DNA of 64,000 nt, taken from contig OX031058.1 in NCBI GenBank assembly GCA_943736015.1, forward strand, positions 21,787,001-21,851,000, written 5' to 3'. Below are positions 7,821 to 59,800 of this stretch, piece by piece. The number at the start of each line of letters is the position of its first letter. Position 1 is the first letter of the stretch. The translations under genes and the position numbers were made by a program. Origin of the DNA: Tridacna crocea (Eukaryota > Mollusca > Bivalvia > Cardiida > Cardiidae). The notes under the pieces are model-generated. The model was given only the letters and a program-made list of their open reading frames with translations, did no database searches and was not told the DNA's origin.

Positions 7821-10800
7821 GTAATGATTTTTTCTTATCTTTGGTATTTATAAATTTTCTATGTTCAAAGGTATAGATCACAGTCTTGAAAACATTTCTC
7901 AGATCAGTAAATTGGTTTTAGAAGTGACAAATGTTATATAGGTTAACCCTTTATCAAACAATCTCTACTTTTTGCAACCAAGAGGAAGAAGCTTTCTGAA
8001 AACATGGTGGAAAAAGGAGAAACTGCTGGTGACCAGCATTTTCTCCTTTTCCCACAATGTGTTTTGCTCATCTAAAAGGAAGTTTTCAACCTTTGATTCA
8101 TTTTTATTTTGTCAACTGTAAATGCTTTCAATTTGGACTTGTGTAAAATTTTATCGTTTGGTAAAGAGTTAACCCTTGTACTGCTAGTGGAAAAAGGAGA
8201 AAATGCTGGTTACCAGCATTTTCTCCTTTTCCCGCAATGTTTTCAAAAGACTTCTATCTCAGGGTTGTAAAAACCAGGCATTGTTTGGTAAAGGGTTAAA
8301 TTGTATACTGCAAGCCTTGCCAAGTGTCAAATACCTGTATTTTCGGCTTGGATTGAAATTGTCTATTTCATTAAGCTCAATATTTTCTACCCTGCTGGAA
8401 ACAAATTTCAATTTTTGAGTTATATTTATTTTGTAGTCTGCAAGTGCTTTCAATTTGGACCAGTCTAAAATGTTGTTGTTCGGTAAAGGGTTAAGTCAAC
8501 TCATTTGATAAAACGAACAATACATAAACACTCATGTAAGATCCTCTCTATATTGCATTATCTTTTTACAGGAAGAAGATGACGAGGGAGATGGCTCTGG
8601 AGGTAGTGTGATGCTTTTGTTCTGTCTGATCTGATTTTATACTTTTTGGGCCAAAAATTGTATAATCTGCAGCAAAGGTCTAAGCTTCAGGGAGTCTTGA
8701 GTTACTGAATTCATAATTTTTGCAAAGCTTGATCTGGATTTATCAGCTTAACTCTATACCAACGACAAAATTTTAGACTTGTCTTAACTCTAAGTATTTA
8801 GAGACTGCATATTAACCCATTACCCACACAATCCCTACTTTGAAAAGGAGAAAACGCTGGTAATCAGCATTTTCTTCTTTCCCACAATGTTTTCTACTCT
8901 TCACAAAACAAATTTCAAATTTTCAGTCTTTTTAGCTCACCTGAGCACAACGTGCTCAAGGGGAGCTTTTAGGGTCACTGGGTGTCCGTCGTCCGTCGTC
9001 AATAATTCTTTAACCCATTACCACACAATCCCTACTTTTGACGCCCCTGAGAAAGAAGCCTTTTGAAAACACTGTGGGAAAAGGAGAAAATGCTGGTAAC
9101 CAGCATTTTCTCCTTTTCCCACAGTGTTTTCTACCCTTCCCAGCACAAATTTCAATTTTTAAGTCACCTTTATTTTGTCGTCTGCAAATGCTTTCAATTT
9201 GGACCAGTCTAAAATTTTCTTGTGTGGTAATGAGTTAAACATCAACTCCTCCTAAACTGCTGGGCCAATTTGGACCAGACTTGGCAGGAATGTTCCTTTG
9301 GAGGTCCTCTTTAAAAAGTGTTCACAGAATTTCATTCCGTCAAAAACTCTGGTTGCCATGGCAACCAAATGGAATTTTTTAGCAAATTCTTTAAAAATCT
9401 TCTCCTCTGAAACCGCTTGTCGGATTTTGAAATTATTTCACAGATATGTTCCTTGGGTGACCCTTTTCAAAAATTGTTCGTGGAATTTTGATCTGTTAAA
9501 AAATGTGGCTCTGGTGAATGGGGGCTACTTGCACTATACAGAAATGAAGGAATTCTTAAAAAATCTTCTTCTCTGAAACCGCTTGTCAGATTTTGAAATA
9601 ATTTCACAGATGTGTTCCTTGGGTGACCCTTTTCAAAAACTGTTCGCGAAATTTTGATTGGTCAAGAAACATGGCTCTGGTGAATGGGGACTACTTGCAC
9701 TATAGGGAAATGAAGAAATTTTTAAAAATTCTTCTTCTCTGAAACGGCTGGACAGATTTTGAAATGATTTCACAGAGATGATCCTTGCGTAACCCTTTTC
9801 AAAATTGTTCACAAAATTTTGATCCATCAAGAAACATTGCTCTGGTGAATGGGGGCTACTTGCACTATATGGAAATGAAGAAATTCTTGAAAATTCTTCT
9901 TCTCTGAAACCCCTAGTCAGATTTTAAAATAATTTGACAGAGATGTTCCTTGGTGATCCTTGCTCTTTTGAATGGGGGCTACTTGCACTATTTGGACATG
10001 ATGAAATTCTTGAAAATTCTCTTTCTCTGAAACCCCTGGTCAGATTTTAAAAGAAATTTTCCGAAATGTTCCTTGGGTGACCCTTTTCAAAACTTGTTCA
10101 TAAGTTTTGATCCATCAAGAAACATGGCTCTCGTGGATGGGGGATACTTGCTCTTATACAGAAGTGAAGAATTCTTAAAAATTCTTCTTTTTGAAACTGA
10201 TGGTCAGATTTCGAAATTGATTTTACAGGTGACCTTTTGAAAATTGCTTAGCAAAATTATAAATTTGGTTCCAATGTTTCAGTACCTCAAAAAAAAAAGG
10301 CTATGGTCATCTCAAAAATTCAAGTGAGCAATCCAGGGCCATCTTGGCCCTCTTGTTTATTTTGCGGTTTGCAAAATTAATGCTTTCAATTTGGACAATC
10401 CTGAGATATTGTCGTTTGTTACTAAAAACCAGAAATTTGTTAGTCATTGGGTTAAAAACATTATGGGAAAAGGAGAAAATGCTGGTTACCAGCATTTTTT
10501 TCTTTTCCCACAATGTTATCAAAAGCCTTTCTATCAATGGTTACCAGCATTTTCTCCTTTTCCCACAATGTTATCAAAAGGATCATTAAAATTGGGGAAT
10601 TTGTTGTAAAGGGTTGACAGGAAAGGTAGATCAAGATCAAACTGCACAAAACATGCAGTCTGATCTTGAATCTACTCTATCTGCTGCCATGCCAGATATT
10701 CTGACAAAGACAGCTTTGCCATGATATCGCAGTATGTTCATCTCAAGTACTGATTGACTGAGAATGTCCATATAGTTCATTTGGCATCACAAGGGTTTAA

Positions 10801-16800: not shown

Positions 16801-19800
16801 TCATCATTGTGTGGTAAAGGGTTATATTTGAAGACTATCCGTAAGATTGACTTTGCCTGAACCTCCCATGCAGTGATGAGGGTAGTCTTTGTGTGTAAAT
16901 ACATGGCCATCTCTGTTGATCAGGTATTCTGTTTTACCTCTTTACCACACAATCCTGACTTTTAATGACCCTGAAAAAGAACCCTTTTGAAAACATTGTG
17001 GGAAAAAGAGAAAATTCTGGTAACCAGCATTTTCTCCTTTTCCCACAATGCTTTCTACCCTTCCTTAAACAAATTTCAATTTTTGAGCAACATTTATTTT
17101 GTTGTCTGCAAATGCTTTCAATATGGACCAGTCTACAAGTTTGTCATTTGGTAAAGAGTTAAGCAAGCATTGAGTGTGGACCTGCAGAAGGTAAATTTGT
17201 TGAAATGCACCTGTATGAAGTAAGTACCTTTCTTATGCAGGCATATGGTGAATATCCTTGAGATGATTTGGTAGCACTTATTTCAGTGTACCCAGAAAAT
17301 AATGGCAAATGAACGTAAATTCAGTTCTTATTCTGAATTTAAGGACTAGGCAGAATCTTTTCAAGTCGGGACATCATGGCCTGTCAGATGACCAGTCTGT
17401 CAATTAAGAAAGAAGAAATGTGACTAGCTGTTGAAATACATTGACATTTAGTTAAATCATTAATCCTCTACCAGAAAACTTTAAGTTATTTCTCTTTTTC
17501 AGCATTTTCTTTTTTTGTTACAAAATTATGTACCCTTTCAAAATCAGATTGGCATGTAACCCTGTACCAAAAACTGAGTTTAACGTTCACGGAGGTCCTT
17601 AAAAATTTGAAAAAACTCTATTTTGTATCTCTTTAGTCCAAAAACAAAAGAAAAAAGAAGAAGAAAAAGAAGGCAAAAAAGAACAGAACTATGAAGCCCA
17701 CAAAAAGAAGAATAGTGATTCCACTAGACAAAAAGGATGAAGTGCAGATTGAGTAAGTCATGTAGATGTAAAGTATGGTTGGAATGTAAATACTTGTGTA
17801 CAAGTTTAACTTTGCAAAGTATAGAGGGATATGGCCACCTCCCCAACAAGGTTTTATGCTGGATCAATAAGACTATGAAAGGAGAAACACTGCTTTATCT
17901 TATTATCATAAAATTTTGGCAAAAGAATATATTCCCTTGAAATAATGTTTTGTTAGTATTAGGTCAACATTCTCTGTTAGAACGCTTTATCAGAAAATAT
18001 AAATTTTAGGCTTGTCTGATTCAAAAGTAGTTGTATATTATAAATTAACACCTCAAAGGAAAAAAAATGTCTTTGAAAGAAGAAAACATGGTTGGAAAAG
18101 AGAAAGTGCCACTTACTTTTTCAGTTTTCTGCTCAGTTTTCAAACCTCTTTTCATCAGAGTCGTTCAAACATGATATTGTGTGGTATAGAGTTGACATAT
18201 TACCTCTTGAAACAAATTTAGACAGACACATAGTAAACATACCTACAAAGTATAGATGGGCAACAGTAACTGGAGTTTGATGCATGGACCGATTTTGAAA
18301 TCACTGTGGATTATTGAAAACAATACCTCCTGTTGTCATAATGTTAACAAAAGTTGTCTGCTATAAGATGGGGGAAAAAAACCTGGTTGCAGTGTGTTTA
18401 ATTCTATTATGACAAAGTTTTAAACTTTTTCATTTTGAAATCACTTTCCAGACAAAAAGTTGAATGTGACACATACAGTATTAGTTGTATGGTCAGGTGG
18501 CAGGGGACTTGGAAACTTGTTCACGTCTGTGGTTAATCACGTCGCCCGAGCTGAAGGCGAGGTGGCGACATGAATCACCACAGCCGTGAACAAGTTTCCA
18601 ATGTCACATAACAAATTTATTATACTGCAAAGTTATACCCTTTCAAAGCATATTAAGCGAAATTTTCCTGTTTTATAGTCTCAGGAAAATCGAGTAGGCT
18701 GGCGGTATAGAAATTCCCTTCTGACTTCTGAGTACCCCAATTCAGTGAAAACGGATGTCACAGTTAAAAAAACATGCAGTTTGGCACATAAACGTGCAGT
18801 CTGGCGATCGATCGGGGCCACCATTTTGGATGTTTTGTTGCAAGTGAAGTGATGTTAACGGGGCACTCAATAGAACAAATAGGCTTTACATGGTTTTTGC
18901 CAGGGTACATGATATAATTATGTTCCTGGCATGTTAACCAATCAGATCACAAGAAATTTATTTGTAGTATAATAATAGAATTTGTGTTTGAAAGCAGTTG
19001 CTCCTTTGTAGGAAAAAAAAAGAAAATGCTAATTACCAGCATGTTGTCCCTTTCCACAATTTTATCAAAAGCCTTCTTCCTCAAAGCTATCAAAACATGT
19101 AATTGTTTGGTTAAAAGTGTACTTTGACCTAACTCAAGTACTTTTAACGAAACAGATCAAATAGAAAAATCTACATTTTTAGATTAACTCTTTACCACAC
19201 GATCCTGACTTTTAACGACCCCCAAGGAAGTAGCCTTTTGAAAACATTGTTGGAAAAGTAGAAAATGCTGGTAACCAGCATTTTCTCCATTTCCCACAAT
19301 GTTCTCTACCTTACCAAAGACAGAAATCATCATTTGGGTTACTTTCTATTTGTCGTGTGCAAATGCTTTGAATTTGGACCAGTCTAAAATTTTGTCGTTT
19401 GGTAAAGAGTTAAAGGAGACACAGTCTGAAAAAAGAGGGTTTAATGCACTTCCATGGTCTATTACACCAAGCAATTTATTATATGATGATGGTTACCTAA
19501 GATCCATTTTGCTTGATAACAGACTGAATCATGAGGTAGAAAGGTTCATAGAAATGCAGAGAATTGAAAGACAGCAAAAATGTTTGGCCCCTATATGCCT
19601 CTGGGAACTGCACAAGCTGATATGGGTTGATACTACTTGCAGATGCATACAAACCCCTTTTCACAGAGCATGGCTAGCCCAGCTGGGTAGCTCATTGGTT
19701 AGTGTATCTGATTCGTGACCTGAAGGTTGTGGGTTCTGCACCCTGTATTAGTGCACTTCGGCGATTTTTGGCCTCTCACTTCTGATGCATGTGAGAAAAG

Positions 19801-22800: not shown

Positions 22801-25800
22801 TTTGTGTTCATCTAAAAGCAACAAGAAATACTGTCCCTGTTCCAAGGCACTGGTGTTTTAAGAGGAAATATCTGCAAGGAAAGCGTGGTATTGAAAAGCC
22901 ACCATTTGAACTCCCAGATTACATTCAGGCCACTGGAATCACAGAAATGAGGGCTGCTCTTGCAGAAAAAGTAGGTACTCTTATATCAAGAAATGCATTG
23001 TGATATAGCCTTTGAACCCTTGTTTTTGCCACTGCCCATTCATTCTAGATAGGAGTTCTAACTCTTGCATGGTTCATCAGTGTTCCAGATGTCCGAATTT
23101 CAGACTGGCCCATAGTAACTATGGCAAAGGATTTGCTGACCAAAAATGGAATTAGGCTAAAATGATTGGGTTTGTCTTTGATTGGGTAGAAAACACTGAT
23201 GGAAAACGAGAAAATACTGTACCTTTTGCCACGATTTTTCGAAATGGTTTCCTTCTTTGGAATGTTAAATTGCAGGATTGTGTTGTACTGAGTTTAGGTA
23301 TTTGACAGTAATTACTGTAAGGATATACTGGTTTGATCCTGACTTGTGACACATGTCCAGTGGGAGTATCTATTAGTAAGTATCTGTTTGTCGTGCTCTT
23401 GCTTTATATTTGTGACCTGTCACGCAAAAAGGAACAATCTGGGAACTTTGACAAGTCTTGACCCTGGTCAGACTGCACGGATTGCGTAGGTTGATCAGGG
23501 TCAACACATTCTGCTTTTATGATATTTTCTGTATACTATACAATGATTTTTGAACTTTCAACCTAAAATGACCCACACTGTCTTTGATCTGTTTTCATTT
23601 AATTGACATACTGATTTCTTAGATTGTCCCTTTTTGGGTGACGGGCCACATTCTTTAAAAACTTCAATCATGGCCACCTTTGATTTTGTACATGTAATAA
23701 TTATTTTAAGTTTAAAGTTAAAAGTCTTTGTTTTCTAGGAAGACCAGAAAAACCTGAAGGCCAAGATGAGAGAAAAAGTGAGACCAAAAATGGGGAAAAT
23801 CGACATAGATTATCAAAAACTGCATGATGCTTTTTTCCGCTGGCAGACCAAACCCAAAATGACCATTCATGGGGACTTATACTATGAGGTGTGTAAAATA
23901 TACTTTTGATTCAAAATTATAAGTAAGAAATTATTGTTGAATCTGAATTACTTTATAGACACCATTTTGGAAGGTAGTTGTTGAAGAATTTCTGACTGCT
24001 CATGCTGACATAATATTCCGAGTCAAAACGACTGATGACCTGAGATGAAGATGTACTTCCTCTTTGGTGTAGGTTTAATTAACTTTTTCTTTTTATTTTT
24101 AACTCACCTGAGCACAAAGTGCTCAGAGTGAGCTATTGTGATAGAGCTGTGTCCGGCGTGCGCCATCCGTCATCAACTTTTACCTTGTGTACGCTCTAGA
24201 GGCCACATTTTCAGTCTGATACTCATGAAAGTTGGTCAGGATGTTTGCCTCAATGAAATCTCGGACGACCTCGAAAATGGGTCATGTCGGGTCAAAAACT
24301 AGGTCACTAGGTCAAATCTTAGAAAAAAAACCTTGTGTACACTCTATAGGCCAAATTTTCTGTCCGATACTCATGAAAGTTGGTCAGAATGTTTGCCTGG
24401 ATGATATCTCAGATGAGTTCGGAAATCTGTCATGTGGGAGCCAAAAACTATTTCACTAGGTCAAATCTTAGAAAAACCTTGTGTAGCTCTAGAGGCCACA
24501 TTTTCAGTCCAAAACTCTTGAAAGTTGTTCAGAATGTTTGTCTTGATGATGTCTCTGACGAGTTTGAAATTGGGTCATGTGTGGTCAAAAACTAGGTCAC
24601 TAGGTCAAATCTTAGAAAAACCTTGTGTACGCTCTAGAGGCCACATTTTCATTTGGAGTAAAAAACTAGGTCACCAGGTCAAATGCTAGAAAAACCTTTT
24701 GTACGCTCTAGAGGCCACATTTTCTGTCCACAACTCTTGTAAGTTGGTCAGAATGTTTGCCTTGATATTATCTCAGACGAGTTTGAAAATGGTTCATGTC
24801 GGGTCAAAAACTAGGTCACCAGGTCAAATCTTAGAAAAACCTTGTATATGCTCTGGATGCCACATTTTCAGTCCAACACTCTTGAAAATAGGTCAGAATG
24901 TTTGCCTTGATAATATCTTGGATGAATTTGAAAATGGGTCATGTAGGGTCAAAAACTGGGTCAATAGGTCAAATGTTATAAAAACCTTGTGTATGCTCTG
25001 GAGGACACATTTTCAGTCTGATACTACTAAAACTTGTTCATAATATTTGTCGTGGTGATACCTTGAATGGGTTTGAAAATGGGTCATGTGGAGTCAAAAA
25101 CTAGGTCAATGGGTCAAATACTAGAAAAACCTTGTGTACACTCTAGAGGCCACATTTTCTGCCTGATACTCTTCAAACTTGGTCTGAATGTTTGTTTTGG
25201 TGATGTCTCAAAAGATTTTGATAATGGGTAATTATTGGGTCCAAAACTAGGTCACTTGGTCAAATCTTAGAAAAACCTTTTGTACGCTGTAGAGGCCACA
25301 TTTTCAGTCCAATACTCATAAATCTTGGTCAGAATGTTTGTCTTATTGATATCTCAAAAGTGTTTTATGATGGGTAATGTCTGATAAAAAACTAGGTCAC
25401 TGGGAAACTAAATGGTTCATGTTTGGTCAATAGACTCAGGTGAGCGATTTCAGGGCCATCATGGCCCTCTTGATCTTTTTATGAAATTCACAAAGGTTAA
25501 ATGTTGAAGTAGAAATCAAACAATTCAGATACAGAGTTTTGAGTAGCAGACAGTCTTGCTAAGTTGTAACAACGTATTTAAAATTGACTTGATCTGTTTA
25601 GATCTGTTTTGAAATAAACCTTGAAGAGAGGTGAAAGAAAATTTTTTCCATTGTTCAAGCTACACACTTTATGAGGGAATGGGGTAATATCAGATATTTA
25701 CATTTATTGGCTTCTATTTACAGGGCAAAGAGTTTGAAACAAGATTGAAAGAGAAAAAGCCAGGAAATATAACTGATGATTTGAAAACAGCACTTGGAAT

Positions 25801-42243: not shown

Positions 42244-42708
42244 TCAATAGGTTGGATATCCGTAACCAACAGGGTAACCATAGCAACAGCCATAGTCATA
42301 ATAATAATAATCCCTCTCTTGCTTCACAATGGGTCTGGTACTAACAAAAAGTTTATCATTCCTATAGCCTTTTCCCATCAATATCTGATGTAGAAAGCTC
42401 TCCTTTGGTGTTGAAGATGGACAGCTACAGTCCCTTGATGTTCCCGCTATGTTTTGTGAACCTTTGCTCTCAAAAGTGTAAGGATAATATGTTCCATACG
42501 AGAAAGGTCCAGTGTTATGGTGCGCATGTCCTGTGTAGCTGTACGAATACTCTTCTGTGTTTGAGACTGAAGGTGCAGACGTTGATGTCTGTGTGGACGT
42601 ACAAGGTGTCTCTGGATAATACGATGACATATTTTCTGACACAGGATTGTCCACTAACATTATAGATGATGTCACCAAGTTTTCCTTTGATACACTCTTA
42701 CTTGCCAT
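42244..42708 (-). CDS. Unknown tyrosine-rich protein, single-exon open frame (154 aa)
   Basis: I do not recognise this protein. The ATG at 42708 is preceded by an in-frame TAA 9 nt upstream, and the frame closes at TGA 42244-42246. The first 60 residues are Ser/Thr-rich (STQTSTSAPSVSNTEEYS). Residues about 105-130 (SFLHQILMGKGYRNDKLFVS, then TRPIVKQE) look like a folded or conserved segment, including a VKQE motif of the sumoylation type. The C-terminus is very Tyr/Gly-rich (DYYYYDYGCCYGYPVGYGYP). There is no signal peptide or membrane segment. It could be a small intronless gene or the last exon of a gene whose upstream exons lie toward higher coordinates. It stands out because it is not a translation of any repeat in the window. 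Confidence 0.5.
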   Translation of the reverse strand: MASKSVSKENLVTSSIMLVDNPVSENMSSYYPETPCTSTQTSTSAPSVSNTEEYSYSYTGHAHHNTGPFSYGTYYPYTFESKGSQNIAGTSRDCSCPSSTPKESFLHQILMGKGYRNDKLFVSTRPIVKQERDYYYYDYGCCYGYPVGYGYPTY

Positions 42709-42709
42709 T

Positions 42710-43097
42710 TTCTTTTGTTACTATTTTATTCTTACTATCAGAGTGAGTATTCACTTCAATTTTAACAAGTCTGTAACCTTTTCTATTAAAATAAAAAATC
42801 TGGAAGATAACAATACCTACTTTTAAAGACCCTGAGAAAGAAGCCTTTAGAAAACAATAGAGAAAATGCTTGTTACCATATGCCAAACATTACATTATTT
42901 TGCCAACTGGTTTCAAACTTGAGGACTAAAAAAATTTTTTCAATAAAATCCTACGAGAAAGTTGGGCAAACCCAATTTTGACCGCAAAGCTATAATTACT
43001 GGAATCCTGGTGGAGGTCTACAAGATAAAGCCCCATACCAGATAATACAGGTCTAGAATGTGTGGTTATAAACAAGAAGATTTTCAAACTTTTCTCA
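42710..43097. other. Intergenic DNA with a MITE remnant
   Basis: A remnant of a hairpin MITE (CCTGAGAAAGAAGCCTTTAG) lies near 42830-42880. The rest shows no gene or clear repeat. Confidence 0.4.
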
Positions 43098-44852
43098 ATA
43101 CAAGAGGGCCATGATGGCCCTGAAATCGCTCACCTGAGTTTATTGACCAAACATGCACCATCTAGTTTCCCAGTGACCTAGTTTTTTATCAGACATTACC
43201 CATCATCAAACACTTTTGAGATATCAATAAGACAAACATTCTGGCCAAGTTTCATGAGTATTGGACTGAAAATGTGGCCTCTACAGTGTACAAAAGGTTT
43301 TTCTAAGATTTCATCAAGTGACCTAGTTTTGGACCCGACAATTACCCATTATCAAACTCTTTTGAGACATCACCAAAACAAACACTCTGACCAAGTCTGA
43401 AGAATATCAGGCAGAAAATGTAGCCTCTAGAGTGTACACAAGGTTTTTCTAATATTTGACCCATTGACCTAGTTTTTGACTCCACATGACCCATTTTCAA
43501 TCTCATTCAAGGTATCACCAGGACAAATATAATGAACAAGTTTTAGGAGTATCAGACTGAAAATGTGTCCTCCAGAGCATACAAAAGGTGTTTATAACAT
43601 TTGACCTATTGACCCAGTTTTTGACCCAACATGACCCATTTTCAAACTCATCCAAGATATTATAAAGGCAAACATTCTGACTAATTTTCAAGAGTGTTGG
43701 ACTGAAAATGTGGCATCCAGAGCATATACAAGGTTTTTCTAAGATTTGACCTGGTGACCTAGTTTTTAACCCCCAATGACCCATTTTCAAACCTGTCTGA
43801 GATATCATCAAGACAAACATTCTGACCAACTTACAAGAGTTTCGGACTGAAAATGTGGCCTTTAGAGCCTACAAAAGGTTTTTCTAACATTTGACCTAGT
43901 GACCTAGTTTTTGACCCCACATGACCCATTTTCGATCTTGTCCGAGATATCATCCAGACAAATATCCTGACCAACTTTCATGAGTATCCAACTGAAAATG
44001 GCCTCTAGAGTGTACAAAAGGTTTTTCTAAGATTTGACCTAGTGACCTAGTTTTTGACCCCACGTGACCCATTTTCGAACTCGTCCGAGATATCATCCAG
44101 ACAAACATCCTGACCAACTTTCATGAGTATCCGACTGAAAATGTGGCCTCTAGAGCGTACAAAAGGTTTTTCTAAGATTTGACCTGGTGACCTAGTTTTT
44201 GACCCCACGTGACCCATTTTCGAACTCGTCTGAGATATCATCCAGACAAACATCCTGACCAATTTTCATGAGTATCCGACTGAAAATGTGGCCTCTAGAG
44301 CGTACAAAAGGTTTTTCTAAGATTTGACCTGGTGACCTAGTTTTTGACCCCACGTGACCCATTTTCGAACTCGTCCGAGATATCATCCAGACAAACATCC
44401 TGACCAACTTTCATGAGTATCCGACTGAAAATGTGGCCTCTAGAGCGTACACAAGGTTTTTCTAAGATTTGACCTGGTGACCTAGTTTTTGACCCCACGT
44501 GACCCATTTTCAAACTCGTCCGAGATATCATCGAGACAAACATCCTGACCAACTTTCATGAGTATCCGACTGAAAATGTGGCCTCTAGAGCGTACACAAG
44601 GTTTTTCTAAGATTTGACCTAGTGACCTAGTTTTTGACCCCACATGACCCATTTTCGAACTCGTCCGAGATTTCATCGAGACAAACATCCTGACCAATTT
44701 TCATGAGTATCCGACTAAAACTGTGGCCTCTAGAGCGTACACAAGGTAAAAAGTTGACGCCGCACGACGCACGCCGCACGACGGACGACGGACGCCGGAC
44801 ACAGCACGATCACAATAGCTCACCATGAGCACTTCGTGCTCAGGTGAGCTAA
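43098..44852 (+). mobile_element. Helitron/Helentron-like element, 145-bp tandem repeats
   Basis: Begins ACAAGAGGGCCATGATGGCC, then GAAATCGCTCACCTGAG; ends TGAGCACTTCGTGCTCA, GGTGAG, CTAA, a 7-bp-stem hairpin just before a CTRR-type end. Between are about 12 units. The last four or five (44040-44700) are nearly identical with an exact 145-bp period, while the left ones are diverged. Subterminal TCACCTGA and TCAGGTGA are inverted with respect to each other. Because 145 is not a multiple of 3, overlapping 71-codon frames step across the array; these are not genes. Confidence 0.65.
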
Positions 44853-48273: not shown

Positions 48274-49347
48274 AACAAGAGCTTTGCAGAGCGGCGCATA
48301 TACACCTGAAGGGGCTTGTCAGTGAAATGAGTTGCATTGACGGATGGGCCATGTATGAAGAGTAGTTATTCTCCATGATATGTGAAAAATATTAAAGGGC
48401 AATAACTAAAAAAATAAGGGTGGAAAAGTTACAAATTTTGTGAATTGTTCTAATGCACAAGGTGTTCTGTCAGTCTTTGAAGGCCCCAGATCATATCTTT
48501 TACATTTTAGAAATTATGGCCCAGACGAAAATTCAAAGTGAAAAGGGCAATAACTCAAAAGGAAGGATGGCAGTGTCATGGTTCTTGTGCACTTCTTCAT
48601 AATGTGTTCTATTACTCTTTGAAGTTTCAAGATGATGGATTTTGAAGTTTAGAAGTTATGGTCTTTACAAAAATTCAAACTGAAAATTAACGAAGGGCAA
48701 TAACTCAAAAAATGAAGGTGGCAGAGTTATGGTTCATGTGCAATGCACTTCTCCATAATGGGTTCTATCAGTGTATGAAGTTCCAAGTTAATAGCTTTTA
48801 TAGTTTGTAAGTTAGGGCCTGGACAAAAATTCAAACTGAAAATTAACAAACGGCAATAACTCAAAAAATAAAGGTGTCAGAGTTATGGTTCATGTGCAGT
48901 GCACTTCTCCATAATAGGTTCTATAAGTGTATGAAGTTCCAAGTTAATAGCTTTTATAGTTTAGAAGTTATGGCCTGGACAAAAATTCAAACTGAAAATT
49001 AACAAAGGGTAGTAACTCAAAAAATAACGGTGGCAGAATTATGATTCATCTGCAATGCAATTCTCCATAATGTGTTCTATCAGTGTATGTAGTTTCAAGT
49101 TGATACCTTTTATAGTATGAAAGTTACAGTGTGAACAAAAATTCAAAGTGAAAAGTTTTTTTTTTTCAGAAATCAAGGGCAGATAATTTAAGAACGCAAA
49201 CAGCGATCCAAATTCTAAGACCCAGGTGCACAACTAGACATCATGGAGATTCATTGTGGCAAGTTTCAAATAATTCCGATGGAAACTGTAGGAGGAGTTG
49301 TGCACACAAGAAATTGCTAACAGACGGACGGACGACCTGGGGTATAA
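48274..49347 (+). mobile_element. Tandem-repeat element, about 156-bp units, third family
   Basis: Begins AACAAGAGCTTTGCAGAGCG and has TATACACCTG near the left end and CAGGTGTATA at the right, the same layout of inverted subterminal motifs as the 145- and 166-bp families, with unrelated repeat units (GGGCAATAACTCAAAA, CCAAGTTAATAGCTTTTATA). Period about 156 bp, around six units, the left ones diverged. A short ACGGACGGACGACC run precedes the right end, as similar runs do in the other families. Confidence 0.6.
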
Positions 49348-50578: not shown

Positions 50579-50587
50579 AATGTACAT

Positions 50588-50795
50588 TGTTACGAGAGAC
50601 CACTCCTTCCTGCATGGCATATACTCCCGATTTAAATACAATACCTGGCTACTGCGTCAGGGAGATATCTCTTTGGCTCAGTGGTTAGGGTATTGGCTTT
50701 GCGTCCGGGAGTTCGGAGTTCGAATCCCGCTCCGATCCTTATTTCTGCCATGCATTTATTCATTTCTTTCTTTGTTACGGACTTCGTTCGTAAGA
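50588..50795 (+). repeat. TRIM 5' LTR with internal tRNA-like promoter
   Basis: Starts TGTTACGAGAG and ends CTTCGTTCGTAAGA. Contains TGGCTCAGTGG (50674-50684), a perfect A-box, and AGTTCGAATCC (50717-50727), one base off the B-box consensus, spaced as in a tRNA gene. The acceptor and T stems do not pair well, so I call it tRNA-like, not a tRNA gene. Confidence 0.85.
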
Positions 50796-50813
50796 TGGGG
50801 GCTCGTCCGGGAT
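50796..50813 (+). promoter_or_regulatory. tRNA-Pro primer-binding site
   Basis: TGGGGGCTCGTCCGGGAT, abutting the 5' LTR as expected for first-strand priming. Confidence 0.88.
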
Positions 50814-50911
50814 TGGCCATTGAGCCATTAATCCCGTTTGTTGTCCAAAATCGGACTTCCTGCCTAATAAGGCTTTGAGTCATCAATAAATGATGACTTT
50901 AAGAGGGGGTG

Positions 50912-51119
50912 TGTTACGAGAGACCACTCCTTCCTGCATGGCATATACTCCCGATTTAAATACAATACCTGGCTACTGCGTCAGGGAGATATCTCTTTGG
51001 CTCAGTGGTTATGGTATTGGCTTTGCGTCCGGGAGTTCGGAGTTCGAATCCCGCTCCGATCCTTATTTCTGCCATGCATTTATTCATTTGTTTCTTTGTT
51101 ACGGACTTCGTTCGTAAGA
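50912..51119 (+). repeat. TRIM 3' LTR
   Basis: Matches the 5' LTR except G to T just after the A-box (GGTTATGG) and C to G in the TTCATTTGTTTC stretch. It is preceded by AAGAGGGGG and two more bases. Confidence 0.88.
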
Positions 51120-51123
51120 ACAT

Positions 51124-51959
51124 ATAAATGAAGGAAAGGAGAAGTGTGATTTAACATGATCTGAATGAATTGAAGATGGACTATAATTGAAACATGATAC
51201 CATCAGGCATAGAAAATCTCTACTCATATAAAATATCAAAAGGTTCTTCTGTTTGCTTTATTTCACTCAAAGTATTTCAAGTGCTCTCTTCTTTGTAATC
51301 ACAGAGCTTCAGAGAGAGGAAGTGGCTTTGATTTTAAAAATTAAATATTAATAATTCCACAACAAACCCTAGGTTATGGGTACTCATTAGAATCGTCTCA
51401 TTGAAACGATTTTATTGAGTATCCACAACATAGGGTTTGAAAGAGGAATAACTGATTTAGAATACCATCTTTCCCTCTTATCTGGAGCTGTGTTATCAAA
51501 TATATTGTTTTCGCATAAAAGTTAAAGCAATCATAGCACAAACAAATTTTTTACACTTCCACAGCTTTTGAAAACTTTTCGGTAAAAGTAGCAATAATAT
51601 TGCTTTTAACAAGATGTTGATTCAAGCCCTCACAATATTCAATATACATGTATTACCAAAAGTGAGCACTTTCTGTATTCAATTCTTCAGTTTAATTCTA
51701 CATGAACTGTATGAGTGTACGTGAAATATCTCAAAGCCAGTACTGTATTATTTTTAAAGATTCTTAGCTAATGTCTATGGAGTAATGCTATATAACAAAT
51801 ATCAAGGCATTTTAGCACTATAGTTTTGGGCAACAACTTTTCTAAGCTTATCACTCTATATCTTTATAATAAAAACTCTGACTTTTCCAGAAATGATGCT
51901 ATTTGGATCAAGGGGCTAGAAATTCAAATAAGTTGTAACCTTTCAATATATACTCAATA
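51124..51959. other. Intergenic DNA with a small inverted repeat
   Basis: An inverted repeat at about 51361-51442 (AACCCTAGGTTATGGGTACTC facing GAGTATCCACAACATAGGG in outline) has a looser relative near 10820-10905. No gene is seen. Confidence 0.4.
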
Positions 51960-51960
51960 A

Positions 51961-52894
51961 CAAGAGGGCCAAGATGGCCCTGGATCGCTCACCTGAATTT
52001 TTGAGAGGACCATAGCCTTTTTTTTTTGAAGGTATTGAAACACTGGAAACAAAATCATTATTTTGCCAAGCAATTTTTAAAAGGTCACCTGTAAAAGTCC
52101 TTTCAAAATCTGACCAGCAGTTTCAGAAAAGAAGAATTTTTAGAAATTTCTTGAATTCCGTACAGTGCAAGTAGCCCCCATTCACCAGAGCCATGTTTCT
52201 TGACCTATCAAAATTTCGCGAACAAATTTTGAAAAAGGTCATTCAAGGAATATTTCCGTGAAATAAATTTCAAATCTGACCAGCCGTTTCAGAGAAGAAG
52301 AATTTTCAAGAAATTCTTCATTTCCATAGAGTGCAAGTAGCCCCCATTCACCAGAGCAATGTTTCTCGACGAATCAAACTTTCATGAACAATTTTTGAAA
52401 AAGGTCACCAAAGGAATATCTCTGTGAAATTATTTCAAAATCTGACAAGCCATTTCAGAGAAGAAGAATTTTTAAGAATTTCCTCATTGCCCTGTAGTGC
52501 AAGTAGCCCCCATTCACCAGAGCAATGTTTCTTGACGAATCAAAATTTCACGATCAATTTTTGAAAAGGGTCATCCAAGGAACATCTCTGTGAAATTATT
52601 TCAAATTCTGAACAGCCGTTTCAGAGAAGAAGAATTTTTAAGAAGTCCTTCATTTCTGTATAGTGCAAGAAGCTCCCATTCACCAGAGCCATGTTTCCTG
52701 ACGGATCAAAATTTCACGAACAATTTTTGAAAAGGGTCATCCAAAGAACATCTCTGTGAAATTATATCAGAATGTGACCAGCTGTTTCAGAGAAGAAAAT
52801 TTTTTAAGAAGTCCTTCATTTCTGTATAGTGCAAGAAGCCCCCATTCACTAGAGCCATATTTCTTGATGGATCAACATTTTGCAAACAACTTTT
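51961..52894 (+). mobile_element. Helitron/Helentron-like element, 166-bp family, 3' end missing
   Basis: Begins AACAAGAGGGCCAAGATGGC and GGATCGCTCACCTGAATTTT, then about five 166-bp units. It stops inside a unit where the next element's head begins, so its own hairpin end is absent. Confidence 0.6.
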
Positions 52895-55261
52895 AACAAG
52901 AGGGCCAAGATGGCCCTGGATCGCTCACCTGAATTTTTGAGATGTCCATAGTCTATTTTTTTTTTTTTGAGGTATTGAAACATTGGAACCAAATTCATAA
53001 TTTTGCCAAGCAATTTTTAAAAGGTCACCTGTAAAAGTCATTTCGAAATCTAACCATCAGTTTCAAAAAGAAGAATTTTTAAGAATTCTTAATTTCTGTA
53101 TAAGAGCAAGTAGCCCCAATCCAAGAGAGCCATGTTTCCTGATGGATCAAAATTTACGAACAAGTTTTGAAAAGGGTCACCCAAGAAACATTTCGGAAAA
53201 TTTCTTTTAAAATCTGACCAGGGGTTTCAGAGAAAGAGAATATTCAAGAATTTCATCATGTCTGAACAGTGCAAATAGCCCCCATTCACAAGAGCCATGT
53301 TTCTTGACGGATCAAAATTATATGTGCAGCTTTTGAAAAGGGTCACCCAAGGAACATCTCTGTCAAATTATTTTGAAATCAGACAACGGGTTTCAGAGAA
53401 GAAGAATTTTCAAGAATTTCTTCATTTCCATTTAGTGCAAGTAGCCCCCATTCACCAGAGCCATGTTTCTTGGCCAATCAAAATTTCGCGAACATTTTTA
53501 GAAAAGGGTCACCCAAGGAACAACTCTGTGAAATTATTTCAAAATCTAACCAGCTGTTTCAGAGAAGAAGAATTTTTAAGAATTTCTTCATTTCTGTATA
53601 GTGCAAGTAGCCCCCATTCACCAGAGCCATGTTTCTTGACCAATCAAAATTTCGCAAACAATTTTTGAAAAGGGTCACCCAAGGAACAACTCTGTGAAAT
53701 AATTTCAAAATCTAACCAGCTGTTTCAGAGAAGAAGAATTTTCAAGAATTTCTTCATTTCCATTTAGTGCAAGTAGCCCCCATTCACCAGAGCCATGTTT
53801 CTTGGCCAATCAAAATTTCGCGAACATTTTTAGAAAAGGGTCACCCAAGGAACAACTCTGTGAAATTATTTCAAAATCTAACCAGCTGTTTCAGAAAAGA
53901 AGAATTTTTAAGAATTTCTTCATTTCTGTATAGTGCAAGTAGCCCCCATTCACCAGAGCCATGTTTCTTGACCAATCAAAATTTCGCGAATAATTTTTGA
54001 AAAGGGTCACCCAAGGAACAACTCTGTGAAATTATTTCAAAATCTGACCAGCTGTTTCAGAGAAGAAGAATTTTTAAGAATTTCTTCATTTCCCTATATT
54101 GCAAGAAGCCCCCATTCACCAGAGCCATGTTTCTTGACCAATCAAAATTTCGCGAACAATTTTTGAAAAGGGTAATCCAAGGAACAATTCTGTGAAATTA
54201 TTTCAAAATCCGACTAGCTGTTTCAGAGAAGAAGAATTTTTAAGAATTTCTTCATTTCCCTATAGTGCAAGAAGCCCCCATTCACCAGAGCCATGTTTCT
54301 TGACCAATCAAAATTTCGCGAACAATTTTTGAAAAGGGTAATCCAAGGAACAACTCTGTGAAATTATTTCAAAATCTGACCAGCGGTTTCAGAGAAGAAG
54401 ATTTTTTAAGAATTCCTTCATTTCTGTATAGTACAAGTAGCACCCATTCACCAGAGCCACATTTTTTGACGGATCAAAATTTCACAAACAATTTTTGAAA
54501 AGGGTCACCCAAGGAACATATCTGTGAAATTATTTCAAAATCCGACTAGCTGTTTCAGAGGAGAAGATTTTTAAAGAATTTGCTTAAAAACTCCATTTGG
54601 TTGCCATGGCAACCAGAGTTTTTGATAGGATCAAATTCTGTGAACAATTTTTGAAAAAGGACCTCCCAAGGAACATTCCTGCCAAGTTTGGTCCAAATCC
54701 ACCCAGCGGTTTAGGAGGAGTTGATGTTTAAAGAATTATTGACGACGCACGACGGACACCGGGTGATCCTAAAAGCTCCCCTTGAGCACGTTAAAATCTG
54801 GCCAGCGGTTTCAGAGAAGAATTTTTAAGAATTCCTTAATTTCTATATGGTGCAAGAAGCCTCCATTCATCAGAGCCACATTTTTTTGACGGATCAAAAT
54901 TTCGCGAACACTTTTTGAAAAGGGTCACCCAAGAGACATCTGTGTGAAATTATTTTAAAATCTGGCCAGTGGTTTCAGAGAAGATTTTTTAAAGAATTTC
55001 CTAAAAAATTCCATTTCGTTGCCATGGCAACCAGAGTTTTTGACGGAATCAAATTCTGTGAACACTTTATAAAGAGGACCTCCCAAGGAACATTCCAGCC
55101 AAGTTTGCTCCAAATTGGCCCAGCGGTTTAGGAGGAGTTGATGTTTAAAGAATTGTTGACGATGGACGACGGACAACGCACGACGGACGACGCACGATGG
55201 ACGACGGACACCGGGTGATCCTAAAAGCTCCCCTTGAGCACGTTGTGCTCAGGTGAGCTGA
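52895..55261 (+). mobile_element. Helitron/Helentron-like element, 166-bp tandem repeats
   Basis: Head AACAAGAGGGCCAAGATGGC; tail TTGAGCACGTTGTGCTCAG, GTGAGCTGA. The units between 53430 and 54350 have an exact 166-bp period (GTGCAAGTAG at 53435, 53601, 53767, 53933). A pre-terminal block, GGAGGAGTTGATGTTTAAAG through TTGAGCACG, occurs twice (about 54716-54790 and 55132-55240), the first copy joined abruptly to more repeat units. No transposase frame. Confidence 0.63.
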
Positions 55262-56851: not shown

Positions 56852-59800
56852 AGGATTCATCACAGTACAGTCTACAGATGTGTTGTGAAATGGGTCAAAT
56901 TTGTCAGCACAGATAATCAGATCTGGCAAGGGGTAGAGTCTCATCCCACAGTCATACGCCCAGTACACTGGGCACACATGGAGAGGTAGAGGTGTGAGAT
57001 GGCCTTGACAAAGTAAAGTCTTCGTAAACTAGGAGAAAAACAACAAGATTCATTTAACATGTCATGTATGTCATGTCATTACAGAATAAATGCTTTTACC
57101 CGTTACAACACAACCCAGACAAAAAAGACTTTAAAAAAACCTTCTTTTTCTATGTTTAAAAAAACCAATATCATAACTACTGAGTCAAAGATATCTCCCC
57201 AACACAGTTTTTAAGTATTGTACATAAATCAGGAAGAATCCATGCATGAAGGAATAGTCTTGGGTAACAGGATATGTACACAAGATTAGCTAATTACCAA
57301 TTACGGACATTTTACCTCAGGAAATGTTTGCCAATTCAAGACACCCTTTATTTGTGGTTATTGTTGTTGAATAAAAAAAAAAAAAAAAAAAAAAAAAAAC
57401 CAGCATTTTCTGCCTTTCATAAAATGTTTTGTCACCTTTCAAAGACATACACTATTATTTGAACTGCATTTAAATTGTTGTCTAAAAATGCTTCCATATT
57501 AACTGGTCTTAAACCAACAACTTTTACCAATAAAGTATTGCAACGATTGTCAGTTTTATTCGAAAACACAGAAAACTTCATTACCCACTAGTGATGCATG
57601 TATTAGAACCGCAAAATAAATAGATATTTCAATAAAAGTTGAGGTTTAACACATCAAATAACATATGCAAGTTTTCGGTCTCCTTTTGTCCTTTACGACA
57701 TGTCCTCTACAAAAAACAAATGCATATACTATAGAAATATAAAACACCTTTGATAGTTGATACTTACATGGGTGGGAACATCCCCATCGTCTGGAAATTT
57801 GACACAATTTCTACACATCTTTGTAACAATGTCTTCCCTAAATACAACAATTTCCTGTGTACAGTACTGTATTCTACAAGGATTACTAGTAAAGATGGCA
57901 GATGGGATTTTGCGTCTCATTTCTTCTGTGATGGAATTTGGAATTGCTGGCCTGAAAATTAAAGTATTAACAAAAGAAGTCTCTTTAACCCTTTACTCCA
58001 TAGATACTCATTTCTACTCATTTCTATGTATTGCTTGTAGGAGCCTTTGGAAAACATTGTGGCAAAAGGTGAAATTGCTTGTGACGAGCAATCTTACCTT
58101 TTGCCACAAATGTTTTCTACACTATCAAAAGGTGTCATATACACATAAGAAACAGCTTCATCCTTGCTGTTATTTAGGGTCAATTAGAGATACCATAGAA
58201 ATGCCTTATTGGAAAAAGGGTTAACAGTTTTGCATTTGCTACCTTCAAAAGTGTTCTGGCTCATGATCACCTTTTGAAAGAATGTTGTTGATCCTTTTAC
58301 CTTCACAACAATAACATACCGCCTGGCTTTTAGTCAATGCTAACTGAAGTGATTGCCATTAAAGAAACTCGCTGTACTAGTATTTCATGCAGAAAACTGA
58401 CTTTTGTTGTACTGATCATGATTCATTTGGACCTTAAATGGTATTCAAGATTAATACTGGATTCTGGTCTTTGATTCTTTCACTTCCTTTAAGCTTTTCC
58501 AAGTTATACGCATTCAACAAAATTTTATGTAGTCAGAAGTTTATGATATTATCGGAAGTCTAAGTACATTTAGAGAGTCAGGTGTTAATGTCATTGATTG
58601 GTGAAGTGATCAAGGTTATGTTGATTACGTAAGTTTATTCAAGCTATTGTTTTCAAATTTGTTGATCGATTAGCCATCTGATAAGTCCATTTTAGATAGA
58701 AGCTGGGGAGTATTTAGAGATGGCAAGTGTCAATAAGGAACATTATGGAATACCACTCTTCACTGCAATGATAAAAAGAAAACTTATTTTTTGTGACCCA
58801 TGATGTAGGTCTAGTTTGTCTTCTACAAAAGTTGCATGAAAGTATTTGCTTTGTGGAAAAACAGAGAAGAAAAAGATCACCGATCCCTTACCTTGGTAAT
58901 ATAGTAGCAGGTCCTGGGTCTAGGGGACCAGGGACAAATATAAATTTACTGCTATTGATTAAATCTGGAAATTCACACAGCAACTCAGTTAAATCATGAA
59001 AACACTCTGAAAGTAAAAGAAATGACATGCTGACAAGGTGGTAAATGCATTTGCAAATAGTGTCAACCCAGGTCAGCATAATAATGTAGTCCCCACAGGC
59101 TGACCTGGGATGAATGTTTTTTGCTATTGGTCAAATTTTTTTTAAAGTCAAAGGACCAATCTTTCTTATGATTCTGCCCTTAGTAAAACAACTTGATTTT
59201 ATTATGAAATGCATCACAGAGGTGCACTAAATTTCCTTTTATGATAGCATGTCTCAAATTCTTATAGTATACTCCAAGAACTATGAGTACAACATGTAAA
59301 AGAAATACCACAATCAACATGCTTAACTCTACCAAACGACAAAGTTTTAGACTGGTCCAAAGTGAAAGCACTTGCAGACAACAAAATAAACATGACTCAA
59401 AAATTGAAATTAGTTTCCAGCAGGGTAGAAAACATTGTGGATACCAGAATTTTCTCCTTTTCCCACAATGTTTTTGATAGGCTTCAATCTCAGGTTCTTA
59501 AAAACCTGGGATTGTTTGGTAAAGGGTTAATAAAATACTGACAAAAATATCTTTATATAACCACAACAATACACTTTGTTAGACAAAGATGAATACAAAG
59601 TACACGTTTTTGAAATTACTTTGGGAGAAAATAATTGACTGCTTTCAAAAGTATATTTTACTTCAAGAATTTATATTTCACTTCACTTCAGTTTCTTTCA
59701 TTTTCCTTACTAACCTGCAAATAAGATAGATGAATCATATCTTTCAACTCTTACACAATCCTTAGTTTTAGAGAACCTGACAGAAAAGGCTATTGAAAAC

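Follow-up and report, generated by a model that had tools for sequence, protein, structure and literature searches.

Anatomy and setting of the element

The 64-kb window (the whole stretch of DNA analysed here) contains, on its plus strand at 50588-51119, a complete miniature LTR retrotransposon of 532 bp. Two direct repeats of 208 nt (50588-50795 and 50912-51119), which differ from each other only at LTR positions 101 and 179, enclose an interior of 116 nt that starts with TGGGGGCTCGTCCGGGAT and closes with AAGAGGGGG-TG. The first-pass annotation had described two 208-bp LTRs with two differences around a 116-bp interior, an 18-nt tRNA-Pro primer site abutting the 5' LTR, a purine tract near the 3' LTR and ACAT on either side, and each of these parts was present in the sequence at the following positions.

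50584..50587, plus strand: 5' target-site duplication ACAT, identical in sequence to 51120-51123
50588..50795, plus strand: 5' LTR, 208 nt, TGTTACGA...TCGTAAGA
50775..50793, plus strand: 8-pair hairpin at the LTR end, just 5' of the primer site (stretch 50765-50800: z -2.3, 5 of 200 shuffles as stable)
50796..50813, plus strand: primer-binding site TGGGGGCTCGTCCGGGAT, 18 nt, tRNA-Pro, flush with the 5' LTR
50877..50899, plus strand: 9-pair interior hairpin, just 5' of the purine tract (stretch 50872-50912: z -3.5, 3 of 200 shuffles as stable)
50901..50909, plus strand: polypurine tract AAGAGGGGG, two bases upstream of the 3' LTR
50912..51119, plus strand: 3' LTR, 208 nt, differing from the 5' LTR at two sites
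51120..51123, plus strand: 3' target-site duplication ACAT

The target duplication is 4 bp long (ACAT on both flanks, with an unlike fifth base), and the LTR termini form imperfect inverted repeats (TGTTACGA versus TCTTACGA read from the other strand). The window has 12 ORFs of at least 120 aa, and the 532-bp element overlaps with none of them. Under assumed substitution rates of 1-3e-9 per site and year, two differences in 208 nt correspond to an insertion age of approximately 1.6 to 4.8 million years. Folding of the whole interior gave a z of -2.7, and the short hairpins at 50775-50793 and 50877-50899 are possible packaging or priming signals. The 18 letters of the primer site are also contained in a published probe for the proline-tRNA primer site of MLV (PMC4587795).

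Downstream of the element, an exon at 57028-56852 (minus strand) encodes a match to DNA polymerase epsilon subunit 2 (POLE2, E 4.3e-24), with the human chain closest among three matches; this and the exon-intron layout point to an animal host. A candidate last POLE2 exon lies about 18.6 kb further, at 38240-38166 (minus strand; E 4e-7, obtained with a probe sequence from recall). If both exons belong to one gene, the element would be situated in the last POLE2 intron, antisense to the gene. An ORF at 42244-42717 (minus strand), with a Y- and S-rich stretch of 154 aa from the first M that ends in CCYGYPVGYGYPTY, was compared with 20 candidates, of which 14 were homologues at E<=0.001, with identities from 94 down to 40%, and none of the 14 carried a Pfam domain or a name. 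It encodes a conserved uncharacterised protein, located inside what may be an intron.

The window also holds repeats of other kinds. A near-perfect palindrome (AAAACATTGTGGGAAAAGGAGAAAATGCTGGT plus its mirror) is strikingly dense, occurring at 41 places within window positions 4001-63562 (64 half-sites with up to 3 mismatches, versus none in 100 shuffles), and its copies sit inside longer repeats of about 100-230 nt. Tandem arrays with a period of 166 bp (52101-54581 and 9384-9961) and of 145 bp (43172-44747 and 24182-25401) each occur in opposite orientation, and a further array has a period of 156 bp (48542-49154). The arrays resemble the satellite-like arrays that Helentron elements are said to have in oysters.

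Internal boxes of the LTR and a diverged relic

Each LTR contains the two internal boxes of a tRNA-type RNA polymerase III (pol III) promoter:

50674..50684, plus strand: A box TGGCTCAGTGG, exact, 5' LTR
50717..50727, plus strand: B box AGTTCGAATCC, one mismatch, 5' LTR
50998..51008, plus strand: A box TGGCTCAGTGG, 3' LTR
51041..51051, plus strand: B box AGTTCGAATCC, 3' LTR

The spacing from A to B is 43 nt, start to start, in both LTRs, which is tRNA spacing, and AGTTCGAATCC departs from the B-box consensus GGTTCGANTCC at a single base; the claim of an exact A box and a near-exact B box per LTR was thus upheld. With the pattern used, A and B boxes 30-70 nt apart were found at these two sites only on both strands of the 64-kb window, and the number of pairs arising by chance averaged 0.01 per 64-kb strand in 100 sequences simulated from the window with a first-order Markov model.

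A check of the element against tRNA models, which the first-pass annotation had proposed, came out negative. No tRNA was among the three weak Rfam matches to the 532 bp at E<=10, and ARAGORN at default settings found none. The top Rfam match, MIR1031, covers the A-box hairpin described below and was not accepted as real (18.7 bits versus a gathering score of 100). At -ps60, ARAGORN scored the LTRs at 74.3 and 71.6 and drew a tRNA-Asn with a poorly paired T arm for the former; however, these scores carry no weight because at -ps65 the program makes 274 calls across the window. Folded as a single strand, the tRNA-like segment (50668-50741) was on par with shuffles (z -0.02). With Rfam, default ARAGORN and the fold of the segment all negative, a reading as a tRNA gene was rejected; as read from its sequence, the segment is promoter-like and not a working tRNA.

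Searching the rest of the window with the element masked recovered a sole significant relative:

57161..57269, minus strand: diverged relic of the same LTR, covering LTR positions 1-113 including the A-box half, approximately 75% identical (blastn, nhmmer and alignment)

The relic matched the 3' LTR at E 9.7e-16 with blastn and 4.4e-10 with nhmmer (nhmmer E 7.8e-10 with the whole element and 1.2e-9 with the 5' LTR). It starts exactly at the LTR start TGTTAC and extends through the A-box half, beyond which it is T-rich and poorly alignable, such that the B-box half no longer aligns. Since the A-box half occupies the same place in the relic, the A half of the tRNA-like segment is an old part of the LTR family, and the promoter segment is, on this alignment, not private to the copy at 50588-51119. 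The possibility raised earlier that the tRNA-like segment occurs only here was accordingly answered in part: the A-box half recurs in LTR context about 6 kb away, but the B-box half is gone from that copy.

All remaining blastn lines in the window had E >=0.13, a second nhmmer line fell at 19644-19730 (E 0.04 to 0.2), and the interior used alone had no nhmmer match in the window. Neither a second two-LTR copy nor an autonomous partner was seen in the 64 kb. Exact words of 20-26 letters from the LTR and primer site had no matches in collections of viral contigs (a 22-mer and a 20-mer from the start and the end of the LTR, respectively, and a 23-mer from the primer-site region) or prokaryote genomes (a 25-mer spanning the junction of LTR and primer site), nor did a 26-mer of the A-box region in either, which says little given the nature of those collections.

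Putative pol III transcription and its alternatives

Transcription of tRNA genes by pol III begins some 12-20 nt before the A box. By analogy with this spacing, TFIIIC bound to the A and B boxes of the 5' LTR would lead pol III to initiate about 12-20 nt 5' of the A box, near 50654-50662, and the resulting transcript would contain the larger part of the 5' LTR followed by the interior and the 3' LTR. An autonomous element, in all likelihood of the Gypsy type and likewise using tRNA-Pro, would provide the helper proteins that package this RNA; tRNA-Pro would prime reverse transcription, and the copy would integrate with a 4-bp duplication. The tRNA-like segment would act as a promoter and not as a tRNA, and termination in the absence of a run of four T (T4) would fall to a weak T-rich site of the 3' LTR, whose T-rich part spans about 51062-51102, or to flanking DNA. 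This mechanism is supported by the paired LTRs with their primer site, purine tract and flanking duplications, by the restriction of paired A and B boxes to the two LTRs, by the relic, by the absence of T4 from the plus strand and by agreement with the Helenus elements of Kojima (PMC10886601). Counting against it are a B box that starts AGTTC and not with the GGTTC called conserved by Kojima, a relic lacking the B box, the missing tRNA-model match, the flat fold of the segment, the GC-rich tiles that are likewise free of T4, and the failure to see another two-LTR copy or an autonomous partner in the window.

The plus strand of the element has no run of at least four T in its 532 nt, and the next TTTT downstream begins at 51332. 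Among 5000 dinucleotide shuffles of the 324-nt LTR and interior unit, 1.1% were free of T4. This unit has a GC content of 46.6%, and T4-free tiles made up 17 of 1257 outside the element in the window overall, 9 of 103 above 42% GC and 8 of 58 above 44% GC. The absence of T4 is therefore only mildly unusual for the element's GC content.

The A box is also part of a hairpin:

50639..50695, plus strand: hairpin of 57 nt with 25 pairs (6 G-U), loop ATAT, A box within the 3' arm, 5' LTR
50963..51019, plus strand: same hairpin, 3' LTR

At 50639-50695, the hairpin folds at -32.4 kcal/mol as sense RNA versus -13.7 kcal/mol as antisense RNA. Its oppositions include six G-U and zero A-C, interrupted by one C-T mismatch and one bulged base. 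The stretch 50640-50704 had a z of -5.0 and its 3' LTR counterpart -5.6 (0 of 200 shuffles as stable for each), and the counterpart in the relic had a z of -3.0 (also 0 of 200). When the strong hairpins of the window, gathered into 53 groups, were ranked by strand asymmetry, the two LTR hairpins came first and second (20.0 and 19.3 kcal/mol, with the third at 15.7), a property examined post hoc and for which the two LTRs constitute one observation and not two. The strength of the hairpin alone is not unusual because 153 other tiles of the window, outside the element, fold at or below -30.5 (48 places; 12,788 tiles on both strands), and many of the 48 places coincide with copies of the palindromic repeat. 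The relic provides no support for constraint on the hairpin, as LTR and relic do not differ in a way that favours pairing: of 10 changed pairs, six are still standard, three are broken and one is gapped, none is changed on both sides, and in 22% of 5000 random placements the number of broken pairs was no higher (P 0.22). The A-box hairpin and the missing T4 terminator are leads, not results.

The two leads can be joined in a single model, which we put forward tentatively and regard as quite improbable. The LTR hairpin, formed in sense RNA only, would have the A box as its 3' arm, and pol III, meeting no T4, would start in the 5' LTR, transcribe the whole 3' LTR and continue into the flank. Initiation would fall inside the 5' arm, so that at the 5' end of the RNA little more than the A-box arm would be present, while the complete hairpin, partner arm included, would lie in the part transcribed from the 3' LTR. 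The RNA ends could then pair and guide first-strand transfer, such end pairing replacing a short terminal repeat like that of Cassandra.

The alternative that best survives the evidence is that the element is an ordinary pol II TRIM, in which the A and B boxes are roleless relics of an old SINE insertion and the TATA-like TTTAAATA at 50631-50638 drives a start in the LTR. We judge this possible and on balance unlikely. It would account for the lack of a tRNA-model match, the poorly paired T arm in the ARAGORN drawing, the ordinary fold of the tRNA-like segment and the mismatch in the B box, and TTTAAATA is found once per LTR. A TATA-like box could, however, equally serve TFIIIB, and TTTAAATA thus suits either polymerase. 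Roleless boxes also sit poorly with their being intact enough to form the only such pair in the window, and with the conservation around the boxes that Kojima describes across Helenus elements (PMC10886601).

Far less probable is the insertion of a SINE into one LTR of an unrelated element, followed by its transfer to the second LTR in a single cycle of reverse transcription, which would leave the segment private to this copy. Insertion of a SINE into an LTR is what Kojima proposes as the origin of TRIMp3 elements generally (PMC10886601). The relic at 57161-57269 nevertheless weakens this account, since at approximately 75% identity it carries the A-box half at the same LTR place, and this half must then predate the copy at 50588-51119. 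A local tandem duplication of 208 bp without any retrotransposon would fit the single two-LTR copy visible in the window but is highly unlikely given a primer site at the exact LTR edge, a purine tract, ACAT duplications, inverted LTR termini and a relic whose start coincides exactly with the LTR start.

We therefore return to transcription by pol III from the LTR boxes as the preferred reading. Taken as a whole, pol III transcription included, the mechanism appears probable; our confidence is limited to that level by the frequency of T4-free tiles at matched GC, by a tRNA-like segment that folds no better than shuffles, and by the standing of the pol II account.

Relation to described TRIM elements

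TRIMs with tRNA-derived sequence in their LTRs were described as Helenus and grouped with Cassandra and Ajax as TRIMp3 (Kojima 2024, PMC10886601). According to this description, Helenus is present in fungi, in animals and in a single plant, Selaginella; pteriomorph bivalves of five orders account for 51 families; lengths range from 311 to 1263 bp; and animal families make 4-bp duplications. Primers of bivalve families include tRNA-Pro, as in Gypsy-13_CGi, and the tRNA-derived LTR sequence was recognised by Censor similarity to tRNA and SINE2. Box A contains TRGCY and YGG, while GGTTC of box B is called conserved and not invariant. Kojima also states that functional use of pol III has not been validated for Helenus. 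Our literature search found no paper on Helenus as a TRIM retrotransposon beyond this one, the main text of which, by word search, mentions neither an LTR hairpin nor an absence of T4 and names a terminator once, for Cassandra.

The element at 50588-51119 agrees with the published account, with two reservations. Its 532 bp fall within the size range, it has LTRs, a primer site and a purine tract without a coding region, TGGCTCAGTGG contains TRGCY and YGG in both LTRs, and the 4-bp duplication (ACAT) and tRNA-Pro primer site agree with animal and some bivalve families, respectively. It differs in the first base of the B box (AGTTC versus GGTTC), and its tRNA likeness was not recognised by Rfam (E<=10) or default ARAGORN. 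Considering identity alone, the element is very probably a non-autonomous Helenus-type TRIM, an assignment made against the published description. Its design is not new, being of a known kind described in 2024, and the mechanism of the first-pass annotation is the published one. The proposal there, a counterpart of Cassandra in which the LTRs of a TRIM carry a tRNA-like pol III promoter, is consistent with the anatomy and equals the idea behind Helenus, but the accompanying statement that its author knew of no such element described from molluscs has been overtaken by the 51 bivalve families (PMC10886601).

Other described elements are more distant. The biv-TRIM elements of bivalves resemble it in LTR length (202-218 bp) and in the inverted repeats of their interior, but this interior is 77-80 bp, they have no clear primer site and the purine tract is GGGGAGA in most (PMC6934838). 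The comparison was made via primers and a conserved interior 14-mer from that source, and the best matches in the element had 9 and 8 mismatches in 20 for two TDR primers and 5 mismatches for the 14-mer; identity with biv-TRIM was rejected on primers, interior and purine tract. Ajax of nemerteans is likewise an animal TRIM whose LTR is presumed to contain a pol III promoter, but it has a 5S rRNA fragment, 5-bp duplications and a tRNA-Leu primer (PMC10886601). No 5S rRNA sequence as in Cassandra or Ajax was among the three Rfam matches of the element at E<=10.

Overall, the element is a well-preserved copy of a recently named class, and it presents two checkable traits, a sense-only A-box hairpin and the lack of a T4 terminator, both of which are relevant to the question of how an LTR element could use a pol III transcript as its genome. 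Cassandra of plants shares the principle of a TRIM with a pol III promoter module inside its LTRs, but it uses 5S rRNA sequence, LTR terminators and 18-bp duplications at the RNA ends, whereas the element described here has a tRNA-like module and no T4 (PMC10886601, PMC7215508). If pol III transcription were demonstrated, Helenus would join Cassandra as a validated TRIMp3.
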